A stretch of 64,000 nucleotides of DNA from Thiomicrorhabdus immobilis. Its GTDB lineage: Bacteria; Pseudomonadota; Gammaproteobacteria; Thiomicrospirales; Thiomicrospiraceae. Under the pieces are notes generated by a model. It did not search any database. It saw only the letters and a list, made by a program, of their open reading frames with translations, and had not been told where the DNA came from. Below, one piece after another: positions 16,017 through 30,952 of the stretch. The position numbers were made by a program, and so were the translations under genes. The stretch's first letter is position 1. Each line of letters begins with the position of its first letter. The stretch lies in assembly GCF_021654855.1 (NCBI RefSeq), contig NZ_AP024202.1, positions 186,001 to 250,000 on the forward strand, written 5' to 3'.

Positions 16017-16046
16017 CCGCTTTGTTTACAATTGTAAGCAAAGCGG
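16017..16046 (-). repeat. 30-bp near-perfect inverted repeat after cynS
   Basis: Arms CCGCTTTG and CAAAGCGG flank TTACAATTGTAA with a single T/G mismatch pair, starting 10 bp after the cynS stop. No clear U-run follows on the minus strand, so it may be an mRNA-stabilising hairpin or an atypical terminator. Confidence 0.6.
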
Positions 16047-16056
16047 AAAAGGCGGG

Positions 16057-16500
16057 TTACCAAGATTTATAAGCTAGGAATTTTCCGTTCATGGTGACAA
16101 CAACTCGATCCCCTGCAGGATTCTCTTCTTTGTCGATATCCATAGAGAAGTCAATCGCACTCATAATGCCATCGCCAAACTTTTCATTGATCACCTCTTT
16201 CATGGTTGGACCATATACACCGACAATTTCATACAGACGATAGATTAATGGATCGGTTGGAATGACTTGATCCCATTTCTTGGTTGGAAAGGCTTTTAAA
16301 GCTTCGGTTACTTCAGTGCCTAAACCTAACAGTTCGGTGACTTTTGCAGCCGGTTCCGGATCAAGATGGTTCATGCCTAAGCAGGCAGAGGTTACATAAA
16401 CTTCACCTAATCCAGCGGCTTTGGCGATTTCACCCCAGCCAATTGATTTTTCGTATTTTGCTAAAACGATTGCTTCGGTCATTTCTACTTTAGACATCAT
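16057..16500 (-). CDS. cynS: Cyanate hydratase (cyanase)
   Basis: Converts cyanate plus bicarbonate to ammonia and CO2, giving detoxification and a nitrogen source. The C-terminal catalytic motifs are intact: the Arg and Glu of YRLYEIVGVYGPT and the Ser of FGDGIMSAIDF. The N-terminal helical domain (EKSIGWGEIAKAAGL) is the usual DNA-binding-like fold. The start was set to the ATG at 16500 (MMSKVEMTE) because GGAG lies nine bases upstream; a TTG at 16515 overlaps that site. A close sigma-54 promoter match precedes it, and the next genes (OsmC, flavoprotein, rubredoxin reductase) are divergent. Confidence 0.95.
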   Translation of the reverse strand: MMSKVEMTEAIVLAKYEKSIGWGEIAKAAGLGEVYVTSACLGMNHLDPEPAAKVTELLGLGTEVTEALKAFPTKKWDQVIPTDPLIYRLYEIVGVYGPTMKEVINEKFGDGIMSAIDFSMDIDKEENPAGDRVVVTMNGKFLAYKSW

Positions 16501-16547: not shown

Positions 16548-16563
16548 TGCAAATGCTGTGCCA
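16548..16563 (-). promoter_or_regulatory. Sigma-54 promoter of cynS
   Basis: The minus strand reads TGGCACAGCATTTGCA, matching all fixed positions of the -24/-12 consensus TGGCAC-N5-TTGCA. The predicted start near 16537 gives a 37-nt leader to the cynS ATG. Confidence 0.85.
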
Positions 16564-16617
16564 TATTTATTAAGTGGTTGATATATATAGTAAAAAGCAT
16601 TTTTTGAATGTTTTTAA

Positions 16618-16675
16618 TGTTAACAAATGTTAACAATTTAATAAATATCTTTAAGATTGTTAACAAATATTTACC
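16618..16675. promoter_or_regulatory. Candidate activator-binding sites (UAS) in the cynS-OsmC divergent region
   Basis: Two similar 18-mers, TGTTAACAAATGTTAACA at 16618 and TGTTAACAAATATTTACC at 16658, share 15 of 18 positions and start exactly 40 bp apart. The palindrome TGTTAACA occurs at 16618, 16628 and 16658, keeping 10-bp helical phase. They lie roughly 90-130 bp from the cynS start and 110-150 bp from the OsmC-gene start, typical enhancer distances for sigma-54 activators. A related 18-mer lies before the ABC operon at 26475. Confidence 0.65.
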
Positions 16676-16751: not shown

Positions 16752-16767
16752 TGGCATCTAAGAAGCT
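16752..16767 (+). promoter_or_regulatory. Candidate sigma-54 promoter of the OsmC operon
   Basis: TGGCATCTAAGAAGCT has GG and GC at the required spacing and a good -24 element, but AA instead of TT in the -12 element. The predicted start near 16778 leaves a leader of about 58 nt. Confidence 0.5.
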
Positions 16768-16835
16768 ATAGGAGAGGTAAGTTTTCGATAACCGAAAGTC
16801 TAAAAAAACTTAAATTAAATTCTTAGGAGAATTAC

Positions 16836-17375
16836 ATGTCTGAATTAATCATTCCATCTTGCTTACGTCCAATCGATACAGACGGCTTAAATAAATTAGG
16901 CGAAGCCGGTAAAGCAGCGCCTGATACGATTAAAACGCTTAAAAGTAAAACCGTTTTGGAAGGTCAGTTTAAAAACTTGAACTATGTGCGTGACTTAGAA
17001 CCGATTGTTGTCGATGAGCCTCCTGTGCTACTTGGTGAAGATACTGCACCAAATCCATCTGAAATGGCATTGCTTTCATTAGGTTCTTGCTTGTCAGTCG
17101 GGGTACAGGCTAACGCGACTAATCGCGGCATCCCTTTGACTAAGCTAGAAGTTGAACTAGAAGGTGATATCAATATTACCGCAGTATGGGGTACCGGTGA
17201 TTTGGATCCAAACAAAAAACTGGGTGTTACCGAAGTTAGAGCTTTCTTCACGATTGAATCACCAGGCACGCCAAAAGAGGTCTTGGAAGAGTTGGTGGCG
17301 CATGCGATGAAATGGTCTCCAGTAGCAAACACTTACTTAAATGCGGTAGATATGTCTGGCAAATTGGTCGATTAG
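16836..17375 (+). CDS. OsmC family protein
   Basis: A 179-residue OsmC/Ohr-fold protein. The conserved NPSEMALLSLGSCLSVGVQANA (about residues 71-92) begins the central helix and carries one of the usual two redox cysteines. The second peroxidatic cysteine in the C-terminal helix (normally about residue 125-135) is not present (HAMKWSPVANTYLNAV), so peroxidase activity is doubtful. It is the first gene of a probable three-gene operon with a flavoprotein and a rubredoxin-reductase fusion, behind a candidate sigma-54 promoter. AGGAGAATTAC precedes the ATG. A 24-bp palindrome overlaps its stop codon. Confidence 0.8.
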   Translation: MSELIIPSCLRPIDTDGLNKLGEAGKAAPDTIKTLKSKTVLEGQFKNLNYVRDLEPIVVDEPPVLLGEDTAPNPSEMALLSLGSCLSVGVQANATNRGIPLTKLEVELEGDINITAVWGTGDLDPNKKLGVTEVRAFFTIESPGTPKEVLEELVAHAMKWSPVANTYLNAVDMSGKLVD

Positions 17376-17398
17376 TTCTTACCAGGCCTGGTAAGAAC
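17375..17398. repeat. 24-bp perfect palindrome containing ACCAGGCCTGGT
   Basis: The 12-mer at 17381-17392 is extended by GTTCTT and AAGAAC into a perfect 24-bp dyad that begins on the last base of the OsmC-gene stop codon. A further half-copy (AACCAGGCC) follows at 17396. It could form a strong hairpin between two cotranscribed genes. Confidence 0.9.
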
Positions 17399-17431
17399 CA
17401 GGCCAATCTGACTTGAAAAGGAGTCAAACTC

Positions 17432-18517
17432 ATGATTAGTCAAATTGTAAAAAACGATTTAAAACCGCTTACCCTATCCATTGACCATGGAAAATATACC
17501 ACCGAAATTTTAGAAAAATTGGGTAAAGCGGGCGCTTTTCGACACCATATCCCTTCACAAAATAACGGCAAGCTCGACTTGTTTGGCACCATTGCGGACA
17601 TGGCCGTGGTTTCAGAAGAGTGTATGTCTACCGGGTTTATGATGTGGGCACAAACCGTCTGTGCTTGGTATATTGAAAACTCAGACAATGAGTGGTTAAA
17701 AACCGATATTCTGCCAAAAATGGTAGAAGGTGAATGTTTTGGAGCAACTTCATTATCTAATCCGATGAAGTACTTTGCGGGTATTGAAGATTTGAAACTG
17801 TCTGCAGAAGAAACGGAAGACGGTTTTATCATTAACGGAACCTTGCCTTGGGTATCGAATCTATTGGAAGGTTCTAAAAAGCATTTCTTCGGCTCTATTT
17901 TTACGGTCCATGGGAAAAATGGTGAAGAGAACCGCGATGCGATGGCGCTTATTCCTTGCGATTTGGAAGGATTGACCATGAAGCAAATGGTGCAGTTTGT
18001 CGGTATGGAAGGTACCGGTACTTATGCGCTCATTTTCGATAATGCGTTTCTACCTAAAAAATACTTGTTATCCGATCCCGTACAACCTTTGCTTAAAAAG
18101 ATGAAAGCCGGTTTTATTCTTTTGCAGACAGGCATGGCTGCAGGAGTGATTCAAGGTTCAATCAATGAAATGAATAAGTCCAACTTGACCTTGGCAGAAA
18201 CCAATGCGTTTTTAGATGATTCACCAGAAGAGTTGCAAGAGGAATTGGAGGACGCTATCGAGTTTATTCAGGACTTGTGTGAAGCGCCCTATACAGAAGG
18301 TGAGGATTATATCAAATCGGTATTAGAGGCACGTTTACTCGGTGCTGAACTCTGCAAACGTTCAGCTGACTCGGTCATGCAACATGCGGGAGCTAAAGGT
18401 TATATTGTGGATGCAGCGGCTCATCGTAAACAGCGCGAAGCCTATTTTGTAATTATTGTGACCCCTTCGATTAAGCACTTAAGAAAAGAAATCGCTAGAC
18501 TTGAAGAAGCGGCGTAG
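17432..18517 (+). CDS. Acyl-CoA dehydrogenase-fold flavoprotein (possible monooxygenase)
   Basis: A 361-residue protein with the acyl-CoA dehydrogenase arrangement: helical N-terminal domain, a middle beta domain ([12 protein letters not shown], then [13 protein letters not shown]) and a C-terminal four-helix domain. I do not see the catalytic glutamate stretch typical of true acyl-CoA dehydrogenases. The C-terminus instead reads [25 protein letters not shown], closer in style to DszC/SfnC-type flavin monooxygenases. No fatty-acid oxidation genes are nearby. It sits between an OsmC protein and a rubredoxin-linked reductase, so an oxidation of a small nitrogen or sulfur compound is plausible; the substrate is unknown. 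Confidence 0.65.
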
Positions 18518-18522
18518 GAGGA

Positions 18523-19890
18523 ATGATGAGTCAGCCATATCAAAAGTATATTTGTAAAACCTGTGGATTGATCTATGACGAAGAGTTGGGTGATCCAGAT
18601 TCAGGATTGGCTCCTGGTACACGATTTGAAGATATTCCTGATGATTGGTATTGCCCTTTGTGTTTAGTGAGTAAAAGTGATTTCATTTTGGTGGATACCG
18701 CTAAAAAAATTGCTGGTGGCGAGCAAACAAAACGAAAGGTTAGTAGCCAGGCTGATGTGTTGATTATTGGATCGGGTTATGCCGGATGGCAAGCTGCGGA
18801 AGCGATTAGAAACGAAAACTCCAGTGCCGTAATCACTCTATTAACCGCTGACGATGGCGCGGTATACCCTAAACCCGCTTTATCGATGGCTTTGAGTCAG
18901 AATAGGACTCCAGAGGATTTGACCGAGGCGACCGCCAATCAAAAAGCGGCTGAACTGGAGTTGGGTGTGAAAACCCGTACCAAGGTGATGTCTATCAATA
19001 CTAAGCGTAAAAAAGTGATGACAACCACCGGAAGTTTTAGTTATGACAAACTGATTTTAGCTACAGGTGCCAAAGCCATGGCGCCACAAATCGAAGGTGA
19101 TGCTTCTCATGAAATTGTTACTATCAATGATTTAACGGCTTATAAAAAGTTTTATAAAGCCTTGCAACAGACTAAAAAAGTCACCCTGATTGGCGGAGGT
19201 TTGATTGCTACTGAATTGGCTGAAGATTTGCGTTCGTTTGGTGTGGAAGTGGATATGATCGTTAGGGGCGCCCATTTGATGAGTCAAATCATGCCTGAGG
19301 CGATTTCACATAATTTAGAAGAGAAGTTAAGAGCGCGCGGTGTGAATTTGATATTTAATTCCGAAGTCAAAGAGATGAATTTTTCTGAAAATGGCTATAC
19401 GCTTAAAACCGACCAAGGCGAAACCTATGGTGCGGAATTGGTTTTAGCGGCTATCGGTATTGCTCCGAATATTGATTTGGCAAAAAAAGCCAAACTGGAT
19501 ACCAATTTAGGAATTTGTATCGACCAATATTGTCAAACCAGTGAAAAGGATGTGTTTGCAATTGGGGATTGTGCCGAAGCGGATGGCGTGGTTCAAGCCT
19601 ATCTGGAGCCGATTCGACGTCAAGTGAAAGCACTGGCATCTCATCTTTATGGCAGTTCCGAAGAGTGTTTCAAAGTATTGCCAACCTTGATTAAAACCAA
19701 GACTCCCAGCCTATCTATTATGTTAAGTCCGCCCTTGCATGCAACCCATGGGCAGTGGGAATTGAATATGAATGTCGGTGAAAATCAGCGGTTACACTAT
19801 ACCGTTGATGGCAAAGTCTCGGGATTTGCTCTCAGTGGTGAGTTTGTTACTTCTGCTAACAAACTTTACCAGGAACTTTATTCCGCTTAA
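18523..19890 (+). CDS. Rubredoxin fused to NAD(P)H-dependent rubredoxin reductase
   Basis: Residues 1-55 form a rubredoxin with iron ligands Cys11, Cys14, Cys44 and Cys47 (CKTCG...CPLC). Residues from about 75 to the end are a two-dinucleotide-domain flavoprotein ([13 protein letters not shown] for [16 protein letters not shown] for NAD(P)[11 protein letters not shown] for the flavin). It therefore carries both steps from NAD(P)H to rubredoxin iron in one chain. Rubredoxin reductases supply hydroxylases or O2/peroxide-reducing enzymes; the likely client is the preceding flavoprotein or the OsmC protein, which is inference. It starts at ATG 18523 or 18526 after GGAGGA, 5 bp past the flavoprotein gene. 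Confidence 0.85.
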
Positions 19891-19963: not shown

Positions 19964-21667
19964 TTACATCCCCAATTTTTGTAAACGATAGTTAAATTGA
20001 CGGGGAGTCATATTGAGTAATAGAGCCGCTCGGGTTTTATTGCCTCTTGCCATTTCTAGCGCCTGTTGCAAGCGCTCCTTTTCATTTTCAGAAACTTTCC
20101 AGTAAGCCCTTTTTTCATCAGGGCCAGGAATGGGGTCGACAAACTCATGAGTAGCATAGCTTTCAAGCTGCGGTGCTGGAGCGGCAATGGGTTGAGGTGA
20201 TGGCACCACATTTTGTGGAATGGTCGCTGGCTGTACGTTTTCAATGTGAGTGGCGACAAATGCTGGTTGTGTAACAGCGGCAGGTGTGGTGCCGCCACGC
20301 ACAATACCCCGTTCCTCTGAGATGATATGGTTAATCAGTTTTGAGGAAATCAAGCGGTTCTTATCGGCCAAAAGCACGGCACGTTTAATGATGTTTTCTA
20401 ATTGACGAATGTTCCCAGGCCAGTCATAGCGCTCCAAAAATGCCATGGCTTCAGGATCAAAAATCGCGCTTGCCGAATATTCTTGGTTTGCTTGGTTGAG
20501 GAAGTGTCTGGCCAATAGTCGAATATCGCCTTCACGTTCTCTTAGAGGAGGCAACTCAATTGGAAATACGTTTAGACGATAGAATAAATCGAGTCTAAAC
20601 GCCCCATTGTTGACTTGTTCGTGCAGGTCTTTGTGTGAGGCGACGATGATGCGGATATCGATTGGAATCGGTTTGGTGGCGCCTATTCTGGTTATGGTTC
20701 GGTCCTCTAGCACTCGCAATAATTTGGCTTGTAATCCCAAGTCCATATCACCAATTTCATCTAAGAATAAAGTGCCGTGATGAGCCAATTCCATTTTGCC
20801 TTGTTTGGCTTGGATGGCGCCTGTAAAAGCCCCTTTCTCATGCCCAAATAGTTCAGATTCAAGTAAATCCTCGGGAATGGCGGAGCAGTTTATCGCGATA
20901 AAAGGGCCATCCTTACGATGGGAGGCCAAATGGAGCATGCGTGAGAATCGTTCTTTACCGGTTCCGGATTCACCTTGAAGCATAACCGTCACCGAGGTGT
21001 TGGTCGCACGGCCAACTTTATTCAAAGCCGCCATTAAAGCCGGGCTTTCGCCAATGATTCCGTACTGGCTTCCTTGGCCTAAAGCCATGGATCTTAATTG
21101 CTCGTTCTCTTCTTTTAAAATTTGGGTTTGGCGTTGAATCATCGCGTTGACGGCCAATATTTCACTAATGAATAGCGCAATCAATTTGAGTAAGCCAAGG
21201 TCTTTGTCGAGCGAGCGGCGGGGGTTGGCCAAGCGGTTTACAGCCAGTACACCAATGACGATGTTGTTTCGAGTGATTGGGGTGGCAATAAATGAAACCT
21301 TGCCTTCTGGGAGGGTCGAACGGTCTACGGTGCGGAACAGGTAGTCGTCTTCTTTATCGATGTCAGAAACGATGGTAGGGGTTCCTGTGTACATAACCTT
21401 TCCTGAAATCCCTTCACTTATCGCAAAGCGACTGCGGGAAATTTCATCAGCGGTTAGGCCGTAAGAGTAAGCGGTATGTAGATAGCCGGTATCGCCATCC
21501 TGTAATAGGATGCGTCCACGATTTAAGCCCATTTGTCTTGAAATCAGACTGAGAATGGTGCGTATTGCCTTGTCAGGATCGTAGGCATTTTCAATCTGTT
21601 CGGCAGCCTCTTTAATGACAACATATTCAGTGTGATTGGCTATATCTAAATGTTCGACTTTTTTCAC
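19964..21667 (-). CDS. Sigma-54-dependent activator, NifA-like (GAF-AAA-Fis HTH)
   Basis: A 567-residue enhancer-binding protein. An N-terminal GAF sensor (about residues 20-175) is followed by the AAA+ domain with GESGTGKE (Walker A), GAFTGA (the sigma-54 contact loop) and LFLDEIGDM (Walker B). A Pro/Gln/Ala-rich linker leads to a Fis-type helix-turn-helix (NKTRAALLLNMTPRQFNYRLQ) resembling NifA. No receiver domain is present, so it is not a two-component regulator. No nif genes are seen. Sigma-54 promoter matches before cynS, the OsmC gene and the ABC operon, all within 7 kb, make it the natural candidate for their activator; this is inference. Confidence 0.9.
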   Translation of the reverse strand: MKKVEHLDIANHTEYVVIKEAAEQIENAYDPDKAIRTILSLISRQMGLNRGRILLQDGDTGYLHTAYSYGLTADEISRSRFAISEGISGKVMYTGTPTIVSDIDKEDDYLFRTVDRSTLPEGKVSFIATPITRNNIVIGVLAVNRLANPRRSLDKDLGLLKLIALFISEILAVNAMIQRQTQILKEENEQLRSMALGQGSQYGIIGESPALMAALNKVGRATNTSVTVMLQGESGTGKERFSRMLHLASHRKDGPFIAINCSAIPEDLLESELFGHEKGAFTGAIQAKQGKMELAHHGTLFLDEIGDMDLGLQAKLLRVLEDRTITRIGATKPIPIDIRIIVASHKDLHEQVNNGAFRLDLFYRLNVFPIELPPLREREGDIRLLARHFLNQANQEYSASAIFDPEAMAFLERYDWPGNIRQLENIIKRAVLLADKNRLISSKLINHIISEERGIVRGGTTPAAVTQPAFVATHIENVQPATIPQNVVPSPQPIAAPAPQLESYATHEFVDPIPGPDEKRAYWKVSENEKERLQQALEMARGNKTRAALLLNMTPRQFNYRLQKLGM

Positions 21668-22066: not shown

Positions 22067-23287
22067 TTAAAAATTGATATTAGTCCAAATCCACAGTTTT
22101 TGAGTGTCTTTGTTGCTGGCTGTATCAGAAGAAAAATTGGCGTATTTGATACCGGCTAGGTAGTTTTTACCGAATTTTTTCGCTACCAGTAAATCGGTTT
22201 CCGAACCAATGCTGTCACTGTTTTTATCAGATTTAAAGTCATGGTAGATCGCCGCTAATTTGACGCCTGAAATCTTAGTGCCGAGTTGGGCATAAGTATC
22301 TACTAAACCTTTTACCGGAGTGGTTAAAAACTTATCTGCCCAACCGTTGTAAAGGTGCAGGGTCGCTAGAGGTGTTTGAAATGAAGAGGTTCCATCACCA
22401 CCAAGCTTTTCTTGAGCAATCATCGCGCTGACACCACTAAATTTTGTGCCCAATTGAAAATGATAGTAGTCACCACCGGTCGCACTTGGCGCATCGGCAT
22501 ATTTGGATTGATCGGCGAATTCCGCTAGGTAACTTAAGCCAACCCCATCCGAAACCTTTACTTCACCTTTGATGCGTGCCCCAACCGTTTGGCTATCTGC
22601 TGTGCTATCGAGTTTATCGATAAAGTAGCCGTAACCGGTTAAGGTCGTCTTTGGCATGATTTTATAATCAAGTTTTACGGCGTGAGTTGCCATTGGAATC
22701 TGTAGGCCAAGAGGATTGTCCTGCTCCGCAATGTAAGCGTAATCCAAGGTCAGGCCATCGACTTCTTTCATTAAGACATGGGCACCATTGTATACCTGCT
22801 CTGTTTGACGCCAGCCAACATTTCCTAAGAAACGGTTGTCCATGATGATGCGTTGTTTACCCGCTTTGATATTCGATTTGGAAAAGCTGTAATCTATCCA
22901 GGCCTGGTTCAAGCGTGTGATAGCCGGGTCTAATACAATTCCTTTATCAACGGTTGGATTCGCATCCGGTCCTAAAGGCACTTTATATTCATCACGACCG
23001 CCAATGGCTTCCGTGCCAGACATTTCCACAAATGCGCTAAAGCCCTTGAAATCGCCTGTCTTATAGCCAATACGGGTTCGTTCGGTAATGGCGGTTCCAG
23101 ATGGGGCACCATCTACGTCAACGGATTCATAACGAACGGTAATATCCACATTCGCCTTACCGCTGGTTAACGCTTCAGTAAAACTATCTGATGCAACTGC
23201 TGATTGTGAGCCGAAAAGAGCGCTAGTGATTGCTAGAGCAACTGGCGTTAAGATTTTTTTGGTTTTCAAAGACATTTTCATTGTCAT
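22067..23287 (-). CDS. Outer-membrane porin
   Basis: A 406-residue beta-barrel porin with a Sec signal peptide (KKILTPVALAITSALFGSQSAVA) and alternating strands such as VDITVRYESV and TRIGYKTGDFKGFSAFVEMSG, ending in an aromatic residue (WIWTNINF) as barrel proteins usually do. The start is the ATG at 23287 after GGAAACC; a longer frame adds 35 non-signal residues. It follows the ABC permease gene on the same strand after a 149-bp gap, so it probably gives outer-membrane passage for the transporter's substrate. A decamer palindrome lies inside the gene. Confidence 0.8.
   Translation of the reverse strand: MTMKMSLKTKKILTPVALAITSALFGSQSAVASDSFTEALTSGKANVDITVRYESVDVDGAPSGTAITERTRIGYKTGDFKGFSAFVEMSGTEAIGGRDEYKVPLGPDANPTVDKGIVLDPAITRLNQAWIDYSFSKSNIKAGKQRIIMDNRFLGNVGWRQTEQVYNGAHVLMKEVDGLTLDYAYIAEQDNPLGLQIPMATHAVKLDYKIMPKTTLTGYGYFIDKLDSTADSQTVGARIKGEVKVSDGVGLSYLAEFADQSKYADAPSATGGDYYHFQLGTKFSGVSAMIAQEKLGGDGTSSFQTPLATLHLYNGWADKFLTTPVKGLVDTYAQLGTKISGVKLAAIYHDFKSDKNSDSIGSETDLLVAKKFGKNYLAGIKYANFSSDTASNKDTQKLWIWTNINF
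22898..22907. repeat. CCAGGCCTGG palindrome core inside the porin gene
   Basis: Decamer with flanks T and T; the minus strand reads Gln-Ala-Trp in LNQAWIDY. Confidence 0.85.
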
Positions 23288-23436: not shown

Positions 23437-24270
23437 CTATTCAACACGCCATGAATAACGTTTGATTAACATCACGGCAATGGCATCAAGCATATAGCCG
23501 ATGACACCGATCACCACCACGATTGCTGCAAGAGAGTCATAGTCCAGGGTATCTCGAGCATCGTTGATTGCGTAACCTAAACCAGAGGTTACACCCAGGT
23601 ATTCAGCTGGAACCAATACAACCCAAGCAACTCCTATCGCCAAACGAATCCCGGCAAATACATCTTGTGCGATGGCTGGCATAATCACACGTCGGAGCAT
23701 TTGAAAACCATCCGCGCCTAGGTTTTTAGCCACGCTGAACCAATTAGGGTCAATACGTTGCACGCCGTGAGCGGTACCAAAGACGATTGGCCAAACGGTT
23801 GCCATAATCAATAGAAAGATAATGGCGTTATCCCAAGTTTCAAACGCTAATACGGCAATCGGCATCCATGCTAATGGGCTGATCATGCGTAAAAATTGAA
23901 AAGGCATATTCGCTACCTGGCGAACCGAAACGAAGTAACCGACAAGTACACCAACGGGTACACCGATCACAATCCCCCAGAATAAACCGATAATGATTCG
24001 GTATAAGCTAGAGTAAATGGTTTCCCAAATCGAACCTGTTTCGATTAGATAAGCCAGGGCGGTAAAAGCTGGCCCTGGTGCGAATCCCGCAAAGGCTTCT
24101 GTATCCGGGTTGGATTGAATGAGTATGCCTCCAATCCACCAAAGTAACAGTAGGATTCCCATTCCCCAAACCGCATTGGAGAAGTTTTGGACGCTATCAG
24201 GAAGTTTCTTAAAGCCAGTGTGCAACTGGCCAAAAGAGAACGAGGGTTTGGATGCTATTGCTGTGCTCAT
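23437..24270 (-). CDS. NrtB/SsuC/TauC-type ABC transporter permease
   Basis: A 277-residue inner-membrane permease with about six spans. The cytoplasmic coupling loop is recognisable in AKNLGADGFQMLRRVIMPAIAQDVFAGIRLAIGVAW (around residues 183-218). The family imports nitrate, cyanate, bicarbonate or sulfonates. Its ATG overlaps the TGA of the binding-protein gene by 4 bp (ATGA), so translation is coupled. The substrate cannot be told from the permease itself; nearby cyanase favours cyanate. Confidence 0.88.
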   Translation of the reverse strand: MSTAIASKPSFSFGQLHTGFKKLPDSVQNFSNAVWGMGILLLLWWIGGILIQSNPDTEAFAGFAPGPAFTALAYLIETGSIWETIYSSLYRIIIGLFWGIVIGVPVGVLVGYFVSVRQVANMPFQFLRMISPLAWMPIAVLAFETWDNAIIFLLIMATVWPIVFGTAHGVQRIDPNWFSVAKNLGADGFQMLRRVIMPAIAQDVFAGIRLAIGVAWVVLVPAEYLGVTSGLGYAINDARDTLDYDSLAAIVVVIGVIGYMLDAIAVMLIKRYSWRVE

Positions 24271-25520
24271 AATACAAAGACCTCTTCTCGTTCAGTTGGG
24301 TTGTTTGGATTGACTCCAGGCACCTTGTCCCAAACCTGGTACTTATCCATCGCATTCTTAACATACTCATAGTTCACCAGGTCTTTGACCACAAAATCGG
24401 TATCAAGGTCTTTTAGGAAATTGGTGTTACCTGCGACTAAGGTATCCTTAAGTTCATCAATGATGAATTTAGTGGCCGATGGGTAAGGGTAAGGGTTAAA
24501 GTCGATTCGACCGACACCCCAGTCTTCATGTTTAATCGCATCTGGATCGGCATAGTGCTCAGGAGCATAGTCTGTCATCGCTTTTAAAACCACTTTAGCT
24601 TTCATTGGCAGGTATTTTTTACCTTCGCGTGAAAGCATGTGAGCCACTTCTTCTTTATGCTCTTGAGCATATAAAGCTCCACGTACGACCGCATTCATTA
24701 CTTTTTGAGACCACTCTTTTTTCTTGTCTACATGTTCATCGTGCATACAGACAACACAACAAGGATGGTTTTTCCAAACGTCACCGGTAAAACGTAACAT
24801 TTTCGCGCCGGCTAAAACCTCACCTGCGGCATTGAATGGTTCCGCAACAATGTAGGCGTCGATTTTCTTAGCCGCTAATGCCGGTGGCATATCTGGTGGC
24901 GGCATGATTTGTAGGTTTACTTGGTTTGGCTTAAGAGGATCTGTCTGGTCTTGGATGACAGGTTCTAAACCAGCGTTTTTCAGCGCCATTTGTAGAACGA
25001 TGTTGTGCATCGAGTACCAATAAGGAATGGCAATTTGTTTACCGCCCAACTGTTCAAACTTTTCAACCCCGGTGTGCTTGCCAACGACTAAGCCTGAACC
25101 ATTGGTGTGCGCCCAGCTGGTGATTTTTACCGGGAATTTGTTGTTGTATCGCATCCAGATTGGAATCGGTTTTAGAAAGTGCACCAAGTTGAACTTTTTA
25201 GCCGCGAAACCTTCAATCAATGGTGACCATCCGCGAATAAGGGTGGGTTTCTCAGCTTTTAAGCCTTCGTCTTCAAAAAATCCCATTGCGTGAGCAACAA
25301 GCAAGGCGCTTGCATCGGTGATTGGAAGATAACCAATGCGCACCACTTCGTCTTCTGGCATTTCCATATTGGCGAAAGCATCTAGAGGTAAACTCATTGC
25401 CGCCGTCAATCCTCCAGCGGCAGCCATGCTGTCCAGGATGAATTCTCGACGTCCTTTTGCAGGGTTAAATTTATAATCTACTTTTGCGGATTCTTCTGTA
25501 ATATCACAAAGTTGGCACAT
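24267..25520 (-). CDS. NrtA/CmpA-type ABC transporter substrate-binding protein
   Basis: A 417-residue binding protein. GRREFILDSMAAAGG near the N-terminus is a twin-arginine-like export signal, and the mature part (VVRIGYLPITDASALLVAHAMGFFEDEGLKAE) has the fold of nitrate/bicarbonate/cyanate/sulfonate binders. A pair of cysteines near the start (MCQLCDI) precedes the signal. The start was moved to the ATG at 25520 because AAGGAG lies eight bases upstream; a frame seven codons longer would cover that site. Ligand unknown: cyanate or nitrate are plausible, given cynS and the cynABD precedent in cyanobacteria. Confidence 0.88.
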   Translation of the reverse strand: MCQLCDITEESAKVDYKFNPAKGRREFILDSMAAAGGLTAAMSLPLDAFANMEMPEDEVVRIGYLPITDASALLVAHAMGFFEDEGLKAEKPTLIRGWSPLIEGFAAKKFNLVHFLKPIPIWMRYNNKFPVKITSWAHTNGSGLVVGKHTGVEKFEQLGGKQIAIPYWYSMHNIVLQMALKNAGLEPVIQDQTDPLKPNQVNLQIMPPPDMPPALAAKKIDAYIVAEPFNAAGEVLAGAKMLRFTGDVWKNHPCCVVCMHDEHVDKKKEWSQKVMNAVVRGALYAQEHKEEVAHMLSREGKKYLPMKAKVVLKAMTDYAPEHYADPDAIKHEDWGVGRIDFNPYPYPSATKFIIDELKDTLVAGNTNFLKDLDTDFVVKDLVNYEYVKNAMDKYQVWDKVPGVNPNNPTEREEVFVL

Positions 25521-25559
25521 GGTAATTCTCCTTAAAGGCAATAAATCGGGTAATTAAAA

Positions 25560-26345
25560 TTAAGAGGCTTTTTGTTCTAATTCGGCTTGTTTTGCTTGGT
25601 CGATTTTTTCAAACTCAGCAAAAAGCTGTTCTTTGAGCTCGATAAACTTAGGTGCGCTACGGTCTCTAGGGTATTCGACAGGAACTTCCAAGGAGCCGAC
25701 GATTCGACCAGGGTTGTGGTTCATAATGACGACTTTATCAGCCATCGCTACGGCTTCTTCGATGTCATGGGTAACCAGCACCATGGTGATGCCTTGGTCA
25801 TGACAAATTTGAGCCACTTCAGTTTGCAGTTGGGCACGGGTGAAAGCATCTAAAGCAGAAAAAGGTTCATCCAGTAGCAGCACTTCAGGCTCCGCAGCTA
25901 AAGAACGGGCTAGGGCAACCCTCTGTTGTTGGCCACCAGAAAGCTGCTGGACATTTTTATCTTTATGCTCTGTTAGCCCAACCATATCAAGCAGGTTCTC
26001 AACGCGCTCTTCATTGCCTTTGTAGGTTCCTGAAAACACGAGAGATAGAGCCGCATTTTCCCTAACGGTCATCCAAGGGTATAAAGAAGGTTTTTGAAAC
26101 ATCATGTTCCACTTGGCATTGGGTTTATATACCGTATGGCCGTTGATGCGGACGGCGCCTTCTGTTGGTATCAACAGTCCTGCCAACATTTGTAAAAGGG
26201 TCGATTTACCACATCCGCTTCGCCCAATTAATGCGGTTAACTGGCCTTTAGGAATGGTTAGGTTGATGTTGTCCAATGTTGGAGAGGTCTGTTTTTTATT
26301 GTAGTAATGGGTGAGATCTGAAATCCAAATATTAGAAGCTGACAT
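25560..26345 (-). CDS. NrtD/SsuB/TauB-type ABC transporter ATP-binding protein
   Basis: A 261-residue ATPase with GRSGCGKSTL (Walker A), LSGGQQQRVALAR (signature) and VLLLDEPFSALD (Walker B), then the His switch in LVTHDIEEA. It powers import through the downstream permease and is the first gene of the minus-strand operon ATPase - binding protein - permease - porin. The start is the ATG at 26345 (MSASNIWISDL), with AGGA seven bases upstream; the longer frame has no homology. A candidate sigma-54 promoter lies just upstream. Confidence 0.92.
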   Translation of the reverse strand: MSASNIWISDLTHYYNKKQTSPTLDNINLTIPKGQLTALIGRSGCGKSTLLQMLAGLLIPTEGAVRINGHTVYKPNAKWNMMFQKPSLYPWMTVRENAALSLVFSGTYKGNEERVENLLDMVGLTEHKDKNVQQLSGGQQQRVALARSLAAEPEVLLLDEPFSALDAFTRAQLQTEVAQICHDQGITMVLVTHDIEEAVAMADKVVIMNHNPGRIVGSLEVPVEYPRDRSAPKFIELKEQLFAEFEKIDQAKQAELEQKAS

Positions 26346-26384: not shown

Positions 26385-26400
26385 TGCACTTATACGGCCA
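26385..26400 (-). promoter_or_regulatory. Candidate sigma-54 promoter of the ABC transporter operon
   Basis: The minus strand reads TGGCCGTATAAGTGCA. GG and GC are at the correct spacing and TGC is kept, but the -24 element departs from TGGCAC. The predicted start near 26374 leaves a leader of about 29 nt. Confidence 0.45.
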
Positions 26401-26474
26401 ATATTAGAAATAGATATGAAAATCAACTGGTTAGGGTGTGTTTAAGTTTAAATGTAAGAATTTAAGCTTAAAAC

Positions 26475-26492
26475 TGTTCTAAAATGTATACA
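26475..26492. promoter_or_regulatory. Candidate UAS upstream of the ABC transporter operon
   Basis: TGTTCTAAAATGTATACA shares 13 of 18 positions with the 18-mer at 16618 in the cynS-OsmC region. It lies about 110 bp upstream of the predicted sigma-54 start, an enhancer-like distance. Confidence 0.45.
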
Positions 26493-26610: not shown

Positions 26611-28743
26611 TTATTTGCTATGGTTAACTAAGAAGTTCTGTTCGAACTCTAGGGCAGGACAAGGTTTGCTGTAATAGTAGCCTTGAATCAATATATCTTG
26701 ATGTTGTTGGCGAATGAACTCGGCCTGTTGTTGGTTTTCAACACCTTCGGCTACGATGTTCAATGATTTGGTCTGCGCCAAGCGTACAATGGATTCGACA
26801 ATCGCCATATCATCAGGATTTTCAGGTATATGGCGAATGAAACTCTGGTCTATCTTGAGCTCGTGAATTGGCAGTTTTTGTAGATAGCTCAAGGATGAGT
26901 AGCCTGTTCCAAAATCATCAATAGAGATGTGGAAACCTAAGCTGACTAAATGTTGGATTTTTTGCAGAGCCAAATCGGTATTGCGGATCAATACCCCTTC
27001 GGTCAGTTCGAGAGTGATGTTGTTGGGATTGACCAGGGTGAATTTGACCAGGCCTATGACCAGTTCTACAAAACTTTGCTCATGGAACTGGATTGGACTG
27101 ATATTGATTGAGATTCGAATATCGCCATATTTTTTGTTCCAGGCTTTGGCCTGCAAAAAGGCTTTGTGCATCACCCATAGGCCAATTTTGATAATCTGTC
27201 GACCTTCTTCGGCAACGGGGATGAATTGGCCAGGAGGAACAAGTCCCAAGCTTGGATGGAACCAGCGTAATAGCGTTTCGGCACCAACGGTTTTGCCTTG
27301 TGAATCGACCTGGGCTTGGAAATAGAGTTGGAATTCATCATCCAATTCAGAGTGATTGAGTGCTTGTAGCATCTCTAGACGTTGTTTGGCGACCGCGCTG
27401 AGTTTGTCTTCAAACAGGTAAGCCTGATTGCCGCCTAGGTTTTTGGCCTCATGCATCGCGAGGTTGGCATGACGAATGATTTGATCGATATTTTCGGTTT
27501 CAAGCCCTCTGTTAAAGAGATAAACCCCGATACTTGCGGTGATGTGTAATGAACGATTTTTGATGTTGTAGCGATCAGCCAGGCTTTCTCTGATCTTGTG
27601 CGCTAAACTCAAGATATGGGTCGTGGTTTCGTCGAAATCTTGACTGACTTCTTTTAGCAGGATTGCAAACTCATCCCCATCCAAACGTGCAACTAAATCG
27701 TCGGTCGAGGTTAATGCCGAAATCTTTTGCGAGACTAAAATCAATAATTGGTCTCCAATCGCGTGCCCGAGGGTATCGTTGATCATTTTGAAGTTGTCTA
27801 GATCAAGCAATATCAACCCTGAAAAACTTTGCGATTTGGGTTGGTTGTTCAGGGTACTGACTAGGTGATTATTAAGTAATGTACGGTTTGCTAGGCCGGT
27901 TAATTCATCATAGTAAGCTAGACGTTCAATTTCATTACGGGCTTCTTGAATATCGGTAATATCTTGTAAAACACCGATAAAGTGTTCGATATTACGGTTC
28001 TCATCGGTCATCATCGAAAGACTCAGTACCGCGTGGTATTGAGAATTGGCTGAAGGGGTGAGTTGTACCTCTCCGCTCCAGCATGACTCGTCTAATAGCG
28101 CTTTCATAACCGAATCGAAAGGGACTCTAAACACCACCTGTTTTTGTAACCATTCGATATAAGTCATGCCTTGCAATGTTTCAGGCGTTAAACCGGTATA
28201 GGCAGAAAAGGCAAAGTTCGGCTGGGTAATATAGCCATGGGCATCGGTAATGAATTGGCCAGCGTAACTGGCATCCATTAGTTTGCTTTGCGCTTCGGCT
28301 TGTATTTGCAATGATTGATCCTGGATTAGAATCAATAGGCTTTCGGTTTTTTGTGCAAGCGATTGGATTTTATGGGCTTTGATGATGATCGGTATCAGGC
28401 AGGTTTTGCTATTTGTATCGGACTCACATCTTATCCATAACAAAGGGCTGGAATGAATCTCTTTACTCAGTAAATTTTCTTTTAACCACTGCTCAACATC
28501 AAACTGAATTCGGTCCCGTTTATGGCTGTAGACCTCAAGTTGTTTAAATAAGGAATCATTTTGATTGGAAAGCTTAATATAAGATTGGGCTTTCTGGTTG
28601 ATTAGGTGAGGTTTGAGGTTCAATGAAAATAGAATCAAACCATCATGAAAGCTGTCGGCAATTTGCTGTTTCTGATTTTTATGTGCGAGACTTAGCTGTT
28701 CAATTAGCGAATTCATCTCGGGCTCAAATTGCGGTAATATCAT
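26611..28743 (-). CDS. PAS-GGDEF-EAL protein, probably a c-di-GMP phosphodiesterase
   Basis: A 710-residue cytoplasmic protein: N-terminal region of PAS-like character, a PAS domain (about 155-265), a GGDEF domain (about 275-440) and an EAL domain (about 460-705). The cyclase motif is DGDEF (355-359) and no RxxD I-site precedes it, so the GGDEF half is probably not a working cyclase, although its DLD metal residues remain. The EAL half keeps its residues: ETLLRW (489-494), NIS, ELTEG, IDDFGTGYSSL, LKIDQSF, AEGVE and QGYY. It has a tandem paralogue directly upstream. Confidence 0.85.
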   Translation of the reverse strand: MILPQFEPEMNSLIEQLSLAHKNQKQQIADSFHDGLILFSLNLKPHLINQKAQSYIKLSNQNDSLFKQLEVYSHKRDRIQFDVEQWLKENLLSKEIHSSPLLWIRCESDTNSKTCLIPIIIKAHKIQSLAQKTESLLILIQDQSLQIQAEAQSKLMDASYAGQFITDAHGYITQPNFAFSAYTGLTPETLQGMTYIEWLQKQVVFRVPFDSVMKALLDESCWSGEVQLTPSANSQYHAVLSLSMMTDENRNIEHFIGVLQDITDIQEARNEIERLAYYDELTGLANRTLLNNHLVSTLNNQPKSQSFSGLILLDLDNFKMINDTLGHAIGDQLLILVSQKISALTSTDDLVARLDGDEFAILLKEVSQDFDETTTHILSLAHKIRESLADRYNIKNRSLHITASIGVYLFNRGLETENIDQIIRHANLAMHEAKNLGGNQAYLFEDKLSAVAKQRLEMLQALNHSELDDEFQLYFQAQVDSQGKTVGAETLLRWFHPSLGLVPPGQFIPVAEEGRQIIKIGLWVMHKAFLQAKAWNKKYGDIRISINISPIQFHEQSFVELVIGLVKFTLVNPNNITLELTEGVLIRNTDLALQKIQHLVSLGFHISIDDFGTGYSSLSYLQKLPIHELKIDQSFIRHIPENPDDMAIVESIVRLAQTKSLNIVAEGVENQQQAEFIRQQHQDILIQGYYYSKPCPALEFEQNFLVNHSK

Positions 28744-28831
28744 GTATTTAGAGGATTCTTAATAAATTAATAAAATCTATAATACATAAATAAATGCGGG
28801 TCGCAACAACAATTATTGTGTAGGTAAGAGA

Positions 28832-30952
28832 TTATTGTTCTAAAAATTGTTTTTCAAATTTTTTGGCAGGGCACGGTTGGCTGAAATAGTAACCTTGAAT
28901 CAATATATTAGCCGACTGTTGTTGAATGAAATCAAGTTGTTCCTTGGTTTCGACCCCTTCGGCGACAATACGTAAATCTTTGGTTTTTGCAAGGTGCACA
29001 ATAGATTCGACAATGGCAACATCTTCTTTGCTGTTAGGAACTCGTGAAATAAAGCTTTTATCGATTTTGAGTTCGTGAATAGGTAATCGCTGGAAGTAAC
29101 TTAATGAAGAGTAACCGGTACCAAAGTCATCAATTGAAACCTTAAACCCAAGTTCGACGATGCGTGCAATTTTTTCCACGGCATTTTCTGTGTCAGAGAT
29201 CAGAATCCCTTCGGTAAGTTCTAAGGTGATATTCTTGGGGTCTACCTTGGTTTCTATCATGATGGAAATGACATTCTGAATAAAGTCGGCTTCATGAAAC
29301 TGGATAGGACTGATATTGATTGAGAGATTAAAGTCTGGTTTTATGCGTGTCCAAGCTTTAGCTTGAATAAACGCGTGGTACATAATCCAAGCGCCCAGTT
29401 TAAGGATTTGCTGGCTCTCTTCGGCAATTTCAATAAATTTATTGGGGGGTATGAAACCAAGTTCGGGATGTTCCCATCTGACTAAGGTCTCGGCACCATG
29501 CAGTTGGTTTCCAGATCCTATTTGAGCTTGGAAGTAGAGCTTGATTTGGCCTTTTTGGTAGGCAAAGGTTAAATCGTGTTCGAGTTGACGGCGGCTTTTT
29601 ATCTCGGCACTTAAAGCGGGTTCATAGATATAGATATTATTTTTTTTCTTAATATCTTTGGCTTTACTGGCGGCTAAATCCGCTTTGATAAGCAAGCTGT
29701 CCGCATTTTCGTTCTCTTCGCGAGGGTAGACAACCAAACCGATACGGGTCGAACTGTGGAGCGTTAATTCATCGACTAAAAAGTGCTGGTTGAGTGCTTT
29801 GGCTATTTTTTGCGCTAATTTCACCGCATTGCGAGTCGCTTCTTCAGTATCCGCCGCTCGATCCTGGGTCGCAACCACAAATTCATCCCCGCCCACACGG
29901 GCGATATTGTCTTCTTCACGAAGAACGGATTTTAAGCCTAAAGCCACTTTCTTAAGGAATTGGTCGCCTGTTCTTCTGCCAAAGGCATCGTTAATGCTTT
30001 TAAAGCGATTGATGTTGATATATAACAGCGCGCTATAGGAGTTGTGACGGCGATGATTCTTAATGGTCGAATTGATGTATTCAATGGCAAGCTTTCGATT
30101 GGCAAGCCCTGTTAAGTTGTCATAAAAAGCCATGTGTTCGATACGGTTATGGGCTTCTTTGATATCGGTGATGTTTTGCAAGTTAACAATGTAATGCTCG
30201 ATGTTGTATTCTTTATCGGCAATCATTGAAATACTCAATACCGCATGGAACACCATATCTTTGGTTGGGTGTAATGTCACTTCACCACTCCAAAACTTCT
30301 GTTCCAACAAGGTTTTCAGGATACCGTTGGTATCATTTTTCAAATCGACTTGCTGTTCCAGCCATTGCATCAGGGTCATTTTCTGCAACGTTTCTTTACT
30401 GAGTCCGGACATGGCGATGAAGCTGTCATTAGGTTTAATGATATAGCCCTTCTCATTGGAAATGAACTGTGCGGTATAGCTGTTGAACGCGGCTTGCATT
30501 AAACGTTTTTGTCCATCGGCTTCAGTATGAACACTACGGTCATAAATGACCAATAATAGGTTCTTGATTTGCCCCTCTTTATTCAGCATCGCTTTGGCAC
30601 TGAATAATAGAGGAGTGCTCTGCAATGTCAGGGGATCGCTGTACCAAAGTAAGATTTCAGTTGGGTCTTTTGAAATCGTGTTTTTAATCTCGTTGAGCCA
30701 ATGCTCTAGTTTGAACGACAGGGTGGCTTTTTTGTTTTTGTAGAGTGAGAGGCGACGATTTTCTGGATGAAACTTCTCATCGATTGAGAGTAGGAGTTTG
30801 GCTTGTGTATTGATTGTGTGGATGTCGAGTGAAGGTTTGAACACAATTATCCCATCATGAATGGCATCAAAGATTTCACGCTTGTTTTGCCGTTCTTCAC
30901 GAATTCTTTCTAAAGAGTTTTCAAGCTCAGTAAGTTGGGAGTTAGTGTCCAT
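28832..30952 (-). CDS. PAS-GGDEF-EAL protein, paralogue of the adjacent gene
   Basis: This 706-residue protein has the same layout as the downstream gene and clear similarity along its whole length (for example WSGEV near 221-225 and the EAL block). Here the GGDEF motif (354-358) and the I-site REED (345-348) are intact, but the metal-binding DxD is replaced by YININRFK (NIN near 312-314). Cyclase activity is therefore doubtful for a different reason than in its neighbour. EAL catalytic residues are intact (ETLVRWEHP, ELTEG, DDFGTGYSSL, AEGVE, QGYYFSQP). The two genes are 88 bp apart and probably cotranscribed. Confidence 0.85.
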   Translation of the reverse strand: MDTNSQLTELENSLERIREERQNKREIFDAIHDGIIVFKPSLDIHTINTQAKLLLSIDEKFHPENRRLSLYKNKKATLSFKLEHWLNEIKNTISKDPTEILLWYSDPLTLQSTPLLFSAKAMLNKEGQIKNLLLVIYDRSVHTEADGQKRLMQAAFNSYTAQFISNEKGYIIKPNDSFIAMSGLSKETLQKMTLMQWLEQQVDLKNDTNGILKTLLEQKFWSGEVTLHPTKDMVFHAVLSISMIADKEYNIEHYIVNLQNITDIKEAHNRIEHMAFYDNLTGLANRKLAIEYINSTIKNHRRHNSYSALLYININRFKSINDAFGRRTGDQFLKKVALGLKSVLREEDNIARVGGDEFVVATQDRAADTEEATRNAVKLAQKIAKALNQHFLVDELTLHSSTRIGLVVYPREENENADSLLIKADLAASKAKDIKKKNNIYIYEPALSAEIKSRRQLEHDLTFAYQKGQIKLYFQAQIGSGNQLHGAETLVRWEHPELGFIPPNKFIEIAEESQQILKLGAWIMYHAFIQAKAWTRIKPDFNLSINISPIQFHEADFIQNVISIMIETKVDPKNITLELTEGILISDTENAVEKIARIVELGFKVSIDDFGTGYSSLSYFQRLPIHELKIDKSFISRVPNSKEDVAIVESIVHLAKTKDLRIVAEGVETKEQLDFIQQQSANILIQGYYFSQPCPAKKFEKQFLEQ

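Follow-up and report, generated by a model that had tools for sequence, protein, structure and literature searches.

Phased TTGTnnACAA repeats upstream of cynS, osmC and ABC-transporter genes in Thiomicrorhabdus immobilis: a predicted enhancer of a local sigma54 activator

The repeats at positions 16618-16675 of the window (the whole 64,000-nt stretch of Thiomicrorhabdus immobilis DNA that was analysed) are, with high likelihood, the UAS of a predicted activator encoded in the same locus (19964-21667), which would drive cynS, the osmC operon and an ABC-transporter operon via sigma54. Comparison of related genomes established, at the level of sequence, the motif itself, its phasing and spacing, its association with sigma54 promoters and its inheritance alongside the regulator gene. 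Very probably, the local activator serves three or four neighbouring gene sets.

The repeat, its copies and the adjacent promoters

The 18-mer TGTTAACAAATGTTAACA is found exactly at 16618-16635, between the divergent cynS (minus strand) and osmC operon (plus strand). As originally predicted, it recurs 40 bp away with 15/18 identity: the second copy (16658-16675) has three mismatches and is offset by exactly 40 bp. With up to three mismatches allowed, the window contains three matches (0.07 expected from shuffles), one of which is the reverse-strand self-match of the palindromic 18-mer. The symmetric form TGTNNACANNTGTNNACA has a single exact match in the whole 2,539,444-bp genome, at 16618-16635. 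Viewed as units of the form TTGTnnACAA, the 18-mer covers two adjacent ones, and the third unit (16657-16666) sits 30 bp, or three turns, from the second.

The original prediction placed a third version at 26475, upstream of the ABC operon. The sequence there, TGTTCTAAAATGTATACA (26475-26492), has the 13/18 identity that was stated, and this similarity judged by itself is at chance level: up to five mismatches yield 16 matches over both strands of the window, and the chance of one such match in a 150-bp stretch of 28% GC is about 7%. The site is rescued because relatives keep a TGT-N12-ACA dyad at the same position relative to the ABC promoter (see below). Two other matches were rejected as enhancers: the strong window match at 16023-16040, which is part of a hairpin behind cynS, and the match G000:C1:411585, located just upstream of a tRNA-Tyr gene. 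The inverted repeat behind cynS (16017-16046) has a predicted RNA fold of −14.7 kcal/mol (z = −5.2) and mimics the enhancer motif.

Table 1. Features of the cyanase locus in window coordinates; promoters, enhancers and IHF-consensus sites are predictions
Feature	Coordinates	Strand	Remarks
cynS, cyanase	16057..16500	-	proposed target
sigma54 -24/-12 promoter of cynS	16548..16563	-	TGGCACAGCATTTGCA
IHF-consensus site between enhancer and cynS promoter	16571..16583	.	TATCAACCACTTA on reverse strand
Enhancer, two adjacent units	16617..16636	.	ATGTTAACAA ATGTTAACAA; dyad TGT-N12-ACA
Third unit and degraded second half	16657..16675	.	unit TTGTTAACAA at 16657-16666
sigma54 -24/-12 promoter of osmC operon	16752..16767	+	TGGCATCTAAGAAGCT
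osmC - acyl-CoA-dehydrogenase-like - rubredoxin/pyridine-nucleotide reductase fusion	16836..19890	+	proposed target operon
Predicted activator	19964..21667	-	GAF - sigma54 AAA+ - Fis-type HTH_8
Opr-like porin	22067..23287	-	here downstream of ABC genes
NMT1/SsuA-type ABC transporter operon	23437..26345	-	proposed target; ATPase 25560-26345, binding protein, permease
sigma54-like -24/-12 promoter of ABC operon	26385..26400	-	TGGCCGTATAAGTGCA; weakest of the three
IHF-consensus site between enhancer and ABC promoter	26421..26433	.	AATCAACTGGTTA
ABC-operon enhancer	26475..26492	.	TGTTCTAAAATGTATACA; reverse strand TGTATACATTTTAGAACA, TGT-N12-ACA

The Opr-like porin scored 50.7 bits, short of the 150 bits at which its family is called. 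At 26611-30952, two adjacent proteins of 710 and 706 aa, ∼45% alike, look GGDEF/EAL-like by eye from sequence.

Elements of the −24/−12 type (GG-N10-GC) were graded by a home-made score with thresholds 6 and 4. A score of at least 6 was reached by 18/18 cynS promoters (17 with GC and one with GT at −12), 19/19 osmC promoters (17 with GC, two with GT), seven of nine porin promoters and 4/19 ABC promoters, compared with 0.6/65 in shuffles. At a score of at least 4, elements are found at 15/19 ABC promoters, but shuffles then reach 10.1/65. Given these scores against shuffles, sigma54 control can be predicted firmly for cynS and osmC; it is likely for the porin and a softer call for the ABC operon. 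When the region was scanned for sigma70 sites, 14 were found, fewer than in shuffles (24.5), and the result was set aside. Cyanate lyase (COG1513) is listed as sigma54-regulated, with enrichment in alpha- and gammaproteobacteria, in the available part of a survey based on promoter matrices (PMC12316311).

Just past the osmC promoter, the leader (16781-16799) carries a short inverted repeat, TTTCG-N5-CGAAA; by eye, most of the 19 relatives have it too, in altered form (e.g. ATATTTC...GAAATAT). It is a candidate for an mRNA hairpin or a repressor site.

Units, spacing and helical register among relatives

The set of relatives comprised 58 genomes, that of the window included. Matches to the regulator were detected in 20 of them: 19 orthologs with at least 68% identity and a twentieth hit with 37%. 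About 20 kb around the regulator was taken in all 20 genomes, and the 19 orthologs were compared; the stretch from L111 contains no cynS-osmC spacer, because its contig stops upstream of osmC. The OsmC/acyl-CoA-dehydrogenase operon occurs together with the sigma54-activator gene in the same 19/58 genomes, and the acyl-CoA dehydrogenase (ACAD) gene is present in exactly these. The cynS gene accompanies the regulator in 19/19 genomes; outside them it was seen only in G002 (a partial gene) and G049 (a 42% match). A BLAST search of the spacer DNA against plasmids gave no match, and among 80 loci from a scan of named genomes, in which near relatives were excluded, only L021 has the module.

A genome scan, proposed in the original prediction as a check, proved uninformative about the regulon: a relaxed (one-mismatch) pattern matched in 25/58 genomes, of which 15 lack the regulator, and was located at the locus in seven of the 19 regulator genomes. 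The pattern is thus too weak to define a regulon.

The composition of the element became clear from counts of TGT-Nk-ACA in 38 regions upstream of osmC/cynS and the ABC operon, compared with dinucleotide-preserving shuffles. The largest excess was at N2 (39 vs 4.3), followed by N12 (30 vs 4.5), N22 (18 vs 4.3), N13 (16 vs 4.4) and N3 (14 vs 4.5). The excess at this series of spacings identifies the element as a palindrome, TTGTnnACAA, recurring about every helical turn; TGT-N12-ACA then arises from the outer edges of two units in succession. The N10 spacing known from NifA is mildly in excess (10 vs 4.2, z = 3.1), and N11 was counted 10 times (vs 4.4).

To separate the dyad from the tandem, we considered isolated units, defined in the main group of 12 genomes as exact units that lack another exact one within 13 bp. 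Of 30 such units, 18 have a lone TGT or ACA as partner at N12 and one has a partner at N10; the other partner spacings from 6 to 19 had at most three each. Since 18/30 isolated units keep the N12 partner, the site bound by a dimer is better described as TGT-N12-ACA. The claim that the spacing is N12, not the N10 of NifA, is thus borne out by both counts.

Dyads are also kept upstream of the ABC operon. Seven of the 12 main-group genomes (L101-L104, L109, L110 and L112, that of the window being one of the seven) have a dyad whose centre lies 83-85 bp before the −24 GG; in the window the distance is 84 bp. One half of each conserved dyad is a good unit, and the other half keeps the outer trinucleotide. 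The repeat was proposed to be common to cynS, osmC and the ABC operon, and units indeed precede all three, with the dyad kept in relatives. Among orthologs, the conserved letters are those of TGT and ACA, not TGTTAA, and the positions between them vary more freely (e.g. TGTCTACAATTGTAGACA, TGTCGACA...TGTCGACA).

The spacing is not rigid. In sub-clade B (seven genomes; picked after viewing the sequences, clade support in the tree 100/97) TGT-N3-ACA occurs eight times vs 1.7 and TGT-N13-ACA eight times vs 1.8, both small counts. N11 and N13 spacings occur in distant orthologs; the spacing drifts between N11 and N13.

The density of units was 5.14 per kb in 41 stretches (12 kb) of the promoters of the cluster and 0.60 per kb in 86 other intergenic stretches (28 kb) of the same loci, although the GC content of the two sets differs (0.30 and 0.40, respectively).

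We measured helical register at 61 promoters (18 cynS, 19 osmC, 15 ABC and nine porin), using TTGTnnACAA units with at least 7/8 matches. The ABC promoters of L105 (no element), L116 (score 3.5), L118 and L119 (2.5 each) were left out of the count for want of an acceptable −24/−12 element. The porin genes of L101-L104 were likewise omitted, being internal to the ABC operon, and the stretches from L106, L108, L111, L114, L116 and L118 gave no porin match. In the zone from −170 to −40, these promoters have 90 units, against 17.8 in shuffles (maximum 34). Absence of the motif upstream of orthologous operons had been set beforehand as the refuting outcome; the five-fold excess of units over shuffles demonstrates instead that it is kept. 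At least one unit of 7/8 or better is present at 51/61 promoters, and none at the other ten (e.g. cynS-osmC of L114, L116 and L117).

The best period over the 90 units is 10.3 bp with R = 0.67, while the maximum of 2000 uniform draws was 0.35; positions peak near −59, −69, −79, −90, −100, −110, −121 and −131. The ABC and porin promoters alone (27 units) gave R = 0.64, and so did 11 genomes chosen to thin near relatives (57 units). These values are to be read with two limits: units arising in shuffles, being so few (about 18), reach R = 0.57 at the 95% point, and nominal p-values are too small because orthologs share ancestry and cynS and osmC share one intergenic region. In the window, unit centres are at −59, −69 and −99 from the −24 GG of cynS, at −131, −121 and −91 from that of osmC, and at −89 from that of the ABC operon. 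With ∼24 bp added to the GG distances, the units lie roughly 83-155 bp from the sigma54 starts; the original prediction had put them at about 90-150 bp and in helical register, and the data agree on both points.

In the nine relatives in which the porin gene does not stand behind the ABC genes, a permissive scan detected a −24/−12 element in 9/9 cases; a unit of at least 7/8 lies in the enhancer zone in eight of them and is absent in L119. In L107 and L113 the region upstream of the porin is shared with the ABC operon.

The consensus of IHF is WATCAANNNNTTR. Exact matches to it were found in 11/19 cynS-osmC regions (1.35 in shuffles) and in 9/19 ABC regions (0.87 in shuffles). At −14 to −29 from the GG, a site is present at 10/18 cynS promoters (eight of the 10 at −14/−15), 5/19 osmC promoters, 6/19 ABC promoters and one of nine porin promoters; thus, about a third of the promoters have an IHF-consensus site between enhancer and promoter. 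The osmC promoter of the window has no such site of its own. According to the available part of PMC7962754, sigma54 promoters usually have IHF in the DNA that separates them from the enhancer.

The candidate activator and competing readings

The domains of the window regulator are GAF-AAA-HTH_8, and no PAS match was found in it. Its nearest family is NifA (TIGR01817; 430.6 bits, below the curated cut-off of 528.85); the QseF/GlrR model NF011695 gave 256.4 bits, short of its cut-off of 763. The recognition helix of this type of regulator reads RQ(F/Y/L).YR, and RQ..Y is common to two annotated NifA proteins (TPRQIGY and TTRQMHY). The NifA-like helix agrees with use of the same TGT half-site at a different spacing.

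Arrays were seen in distant orthologous modules as well. L021 (Enterovirga), L170 (a Caballeronia plasmid), L179 and L181 have TGTCGACA units before osmC, 100-121 bp upstream of TGGCAY-N5-TTGC, and in L169 (a Marinobacter plasmid) there are related repeats, TTGTCnGACA, which escaped the unit scan. In L172 and L176, where the regulator is present, no clear array with a sigma54 promoter was found upstream of osmC. Seven further stretches (L177, L178, L180, L182-L184 and L186) have osmC with a good sigma54 promoter and no regulator in the fetched stretch; units of at least 7/8 were found in 0/7. At these seven loci, an inverted repeat resembling a TetR operator, CAGAMCGTTCKGT, comes immediately after the osmC promoter, and in L190 and L192 a TetR-family gene is divergent to the module. 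In L190 and L191 (Rhodobacterales plasmids) the OsmC/ACAD/ABC module adjoins a sulfurtransferase gene, and cynS was not found in the stretch, which hints at a substrate containing sulfur and nitrogen, e.g. thiocyanate.

CynF-type paralogs stand beside cynABDS-like operons, and three relatives have one as a second copy. They group in a clade of their own (support 100/100) and have a different recognition helix (KPTTL.S). Upstream of the gene for the cyn ABC binding protein, 8/8 loci of this type (L146, L147, L148, L179, L180, L182, L183 and L184) have the dyad TACGAA-N2-TTCGTA in two or three copies at intervals of about 21-22 and 17-18 bp, and TGGCA-N8-GC follows 70-101 bp further on; L148 alone among them also has a single TTGTnnACAA unit. 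These dyads are a candidate CynF enhancer. In the group of the window, TACGAA-N2-TTCGTA is at chance level (12/65 promoters, 10.4 in shuffles). The tree, the HTH and the motif led us to reject CynF as the identity of the window regulator.

Co-inheritance with the regulator, phased units at sigma54 promoters, arrays of distant orthologs and the different motif of the CynF type make an enhancer of the local regulator the most likely explanation. We infer the following mechanism. The activator, encoded about 3.3 kb from the repeats, would bind TGT-N12-ACA dyads as dimers through its NifA-like Fis-type HTH. The dyads would be built from palindromic TTGTnnACAA units that recur each helical turn on one face of the DNA, and the activator would oligomerise at the array; IHF may then bend the DNA between enhancer and promoter so that the activator contacts sigma54-RNA polymerase. 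The divergent cynS and osmC promoters would share one enhancer array, the ABC promoter would use its own single dyad, and the porin in relatives would be driven likewise. The inducing signal could be cyanate or a related compound acting via the GAF domain.

Other proteins might read the same sites. Besides one rpoN and an IHF-beta gene over its cut-off, the genome has five sigma54-activator loci, the window regulator counted; among them NtrC scored over its cut-off, and three further loci are present besides the local one. A reader such as NtrC or a QseF/GlrR-like response regulator would also be in keeping with the use of three TGTN12ACA sites and IHF by QseF (PMC6075780, as far as the accessible part goes) and with NtrC-like sites (TGCACC-N5-GGTGCA, 9-10 of 12 positions) upstream of the ABC operon in 7/19 genomes, vs 0.84 expected (L103, L104, L108, L111, L113, L114 and L118; mostly close to the enhancer). 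However, no QseF/GlrR (NF011695) scored over its cut-off in the genome, NtrC-like sites occur in 0/19 cynS-osmC regions, in distant proteobacteria the orthologous regulator goes together with the TTGTnnACAA/TGTCGACA array, and units are absent at all seven of the above osmC loci that have a sigma54 promoter and no regulator in the fetched stretch. We therefore regard reading by another sigma54 activator as improbable. The NtrC-like sites lead to a separate suggestion: the transporter may be under a second control by nitrogen status and, like cynABDS, respond to a lack of nitrogen as well; the match in the ABC region of the window itself is under 9/12.

ArcA sites are direct repeats about 10-11 bp apart, and TGTTAA is repeated at 10-bp spacing in the window; the repeats might thus belong to a regulator that does not work with sigma54, such as ArcA, or to a CrtJ/PpsR-like factor, given that TGT-N12-ACA is bound by CrtJ/PpsR (accessible parts of PMC4452267 and PMC9144470). 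Yet orthologs conserve the outer trinucleotides and not TGTTAA, and the position of the sites is locked to the sigma54 promoter, which leaves this reading with little probability. Chance palindromes in an A+T-rich spacer would explain the third copy, which taken alone is at chance level, and the promoter stretches of the cluster have 30% GC; still, dinucleotide-preserving shuffles give a five-fold lower count, and the same kind of array is found in GC-rich distant orthologs. Chance is hardly credible as the general explanation and is refuted for the set; for the degraded half-site at 16667-16675 it may yet apply.

Within the reading as an enhancer of the local regulator, a more far-reaching form can be put forward as a speculation that we consider rather doubtful. 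A NifA-like branch would read a phased TTGTnnACAA array in which each unit takes part in two overlapping dyads; neighbouring dimers would share half-sites, and the array would directly nucleate the hexamer. The NifA-type helix would have been re-spaced from N10 to N12, N13 or N11 by lineage, and the pathway so controlled would be an undescribed, cyanate-linked one of OsmC, acyl-CoA dehydrogenase and rubredoxin.

Comparison with known systems

In NifA-dependent systems, IHF acts between enhancer and promoter. The window regulator resembles NifA as a sigma54 activator with GAF, AAA+ and Fis-type HTH domains, in the TGT/ACA half-sites and in the RQ..Y helix. It differs in its score under the cut-off, in its proposed cyanate-related targets and in the spacing of 12 (or 13) instead of 10, the NifA UAS being TGT-N10-ACA (PMC6066989, accessible part).

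Another comparable system is QseF/GlrR in E. coli, an IHF-assisted sigma54 activator with three TGTN12ACA sites upstream of glmY: trinucleotides, spacing, several sites, sigma54 and IHF are all shared, the resemblance being one of layout only. QseF, however, is a response regulator, and the accessible part of PMC6075780 does not describe palindromic TTGTnnACAA units for it. CrtJ/PpsR has the same TGT-N12-ACA dyad and paired sites; unlike the predicted activator, it is a redox-responding repressor of photosynthesis genes, not a sigma54 activator. CrtJ/PpsR has PAS-PAS-HTH architecture.

The spacing was originally proposed as a possible mark of a new enhancer specificity. This view is not supported: TGT-N12-ACA has been reported for QseF and CrtJ/PpsR, and here it varies to N11 and N13. 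In the library searched, looking for the regulator, the OsmC/ACAD/rubredoxin-cyanase module and TGT-N11/12/13-ACA turned up papers on CynF, QseF, CrtJ/PpsR and NifA, and none that describes this regulator or module. The sigma54 regulon survey (PMC12316311) has cyanate lyase in common with the present locus; it offers no enhancer, activator or OsmC module, and the words 'cynS' and 'OsmC' did not turn up when its main text was searched for them. Since QseF and CrtJ/PpsR already use the dyad, we propose an undescribed enhancer-regulator pair with a known style of site. It provides a testable enhancer code for the regulator and the OsmC/ACAD/rubredoxin-cyanase module of alpha-, beta- and gammaproteobacteria and plasmids. 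Together with NifA (N10) and QseF (N12), it forms a series for studying how sigma54 activators alter operator spacing with the TGT half-site kept.

CynF of Pseudomonas pseudoalcaligenes CECT5344 is easily confused with the window regulator, and the two can now be told apart. CynF is a Fis-family sigma54 regulator essential for the cyn ABC-transporter/cyanase operon, which is cyanate-induced and ammonium-repressed (PMC6627978, accessible part). Both are Fis-family sigma54 regulators linked to ABC-transporter and cyanase genes; judged from the regulators beside cynF-cynABDS-like operons in the examined genomes, they differ in clade, HTH and motif, and the regulator of the window goes with the OsmC/ACAD/rubredoxin module.
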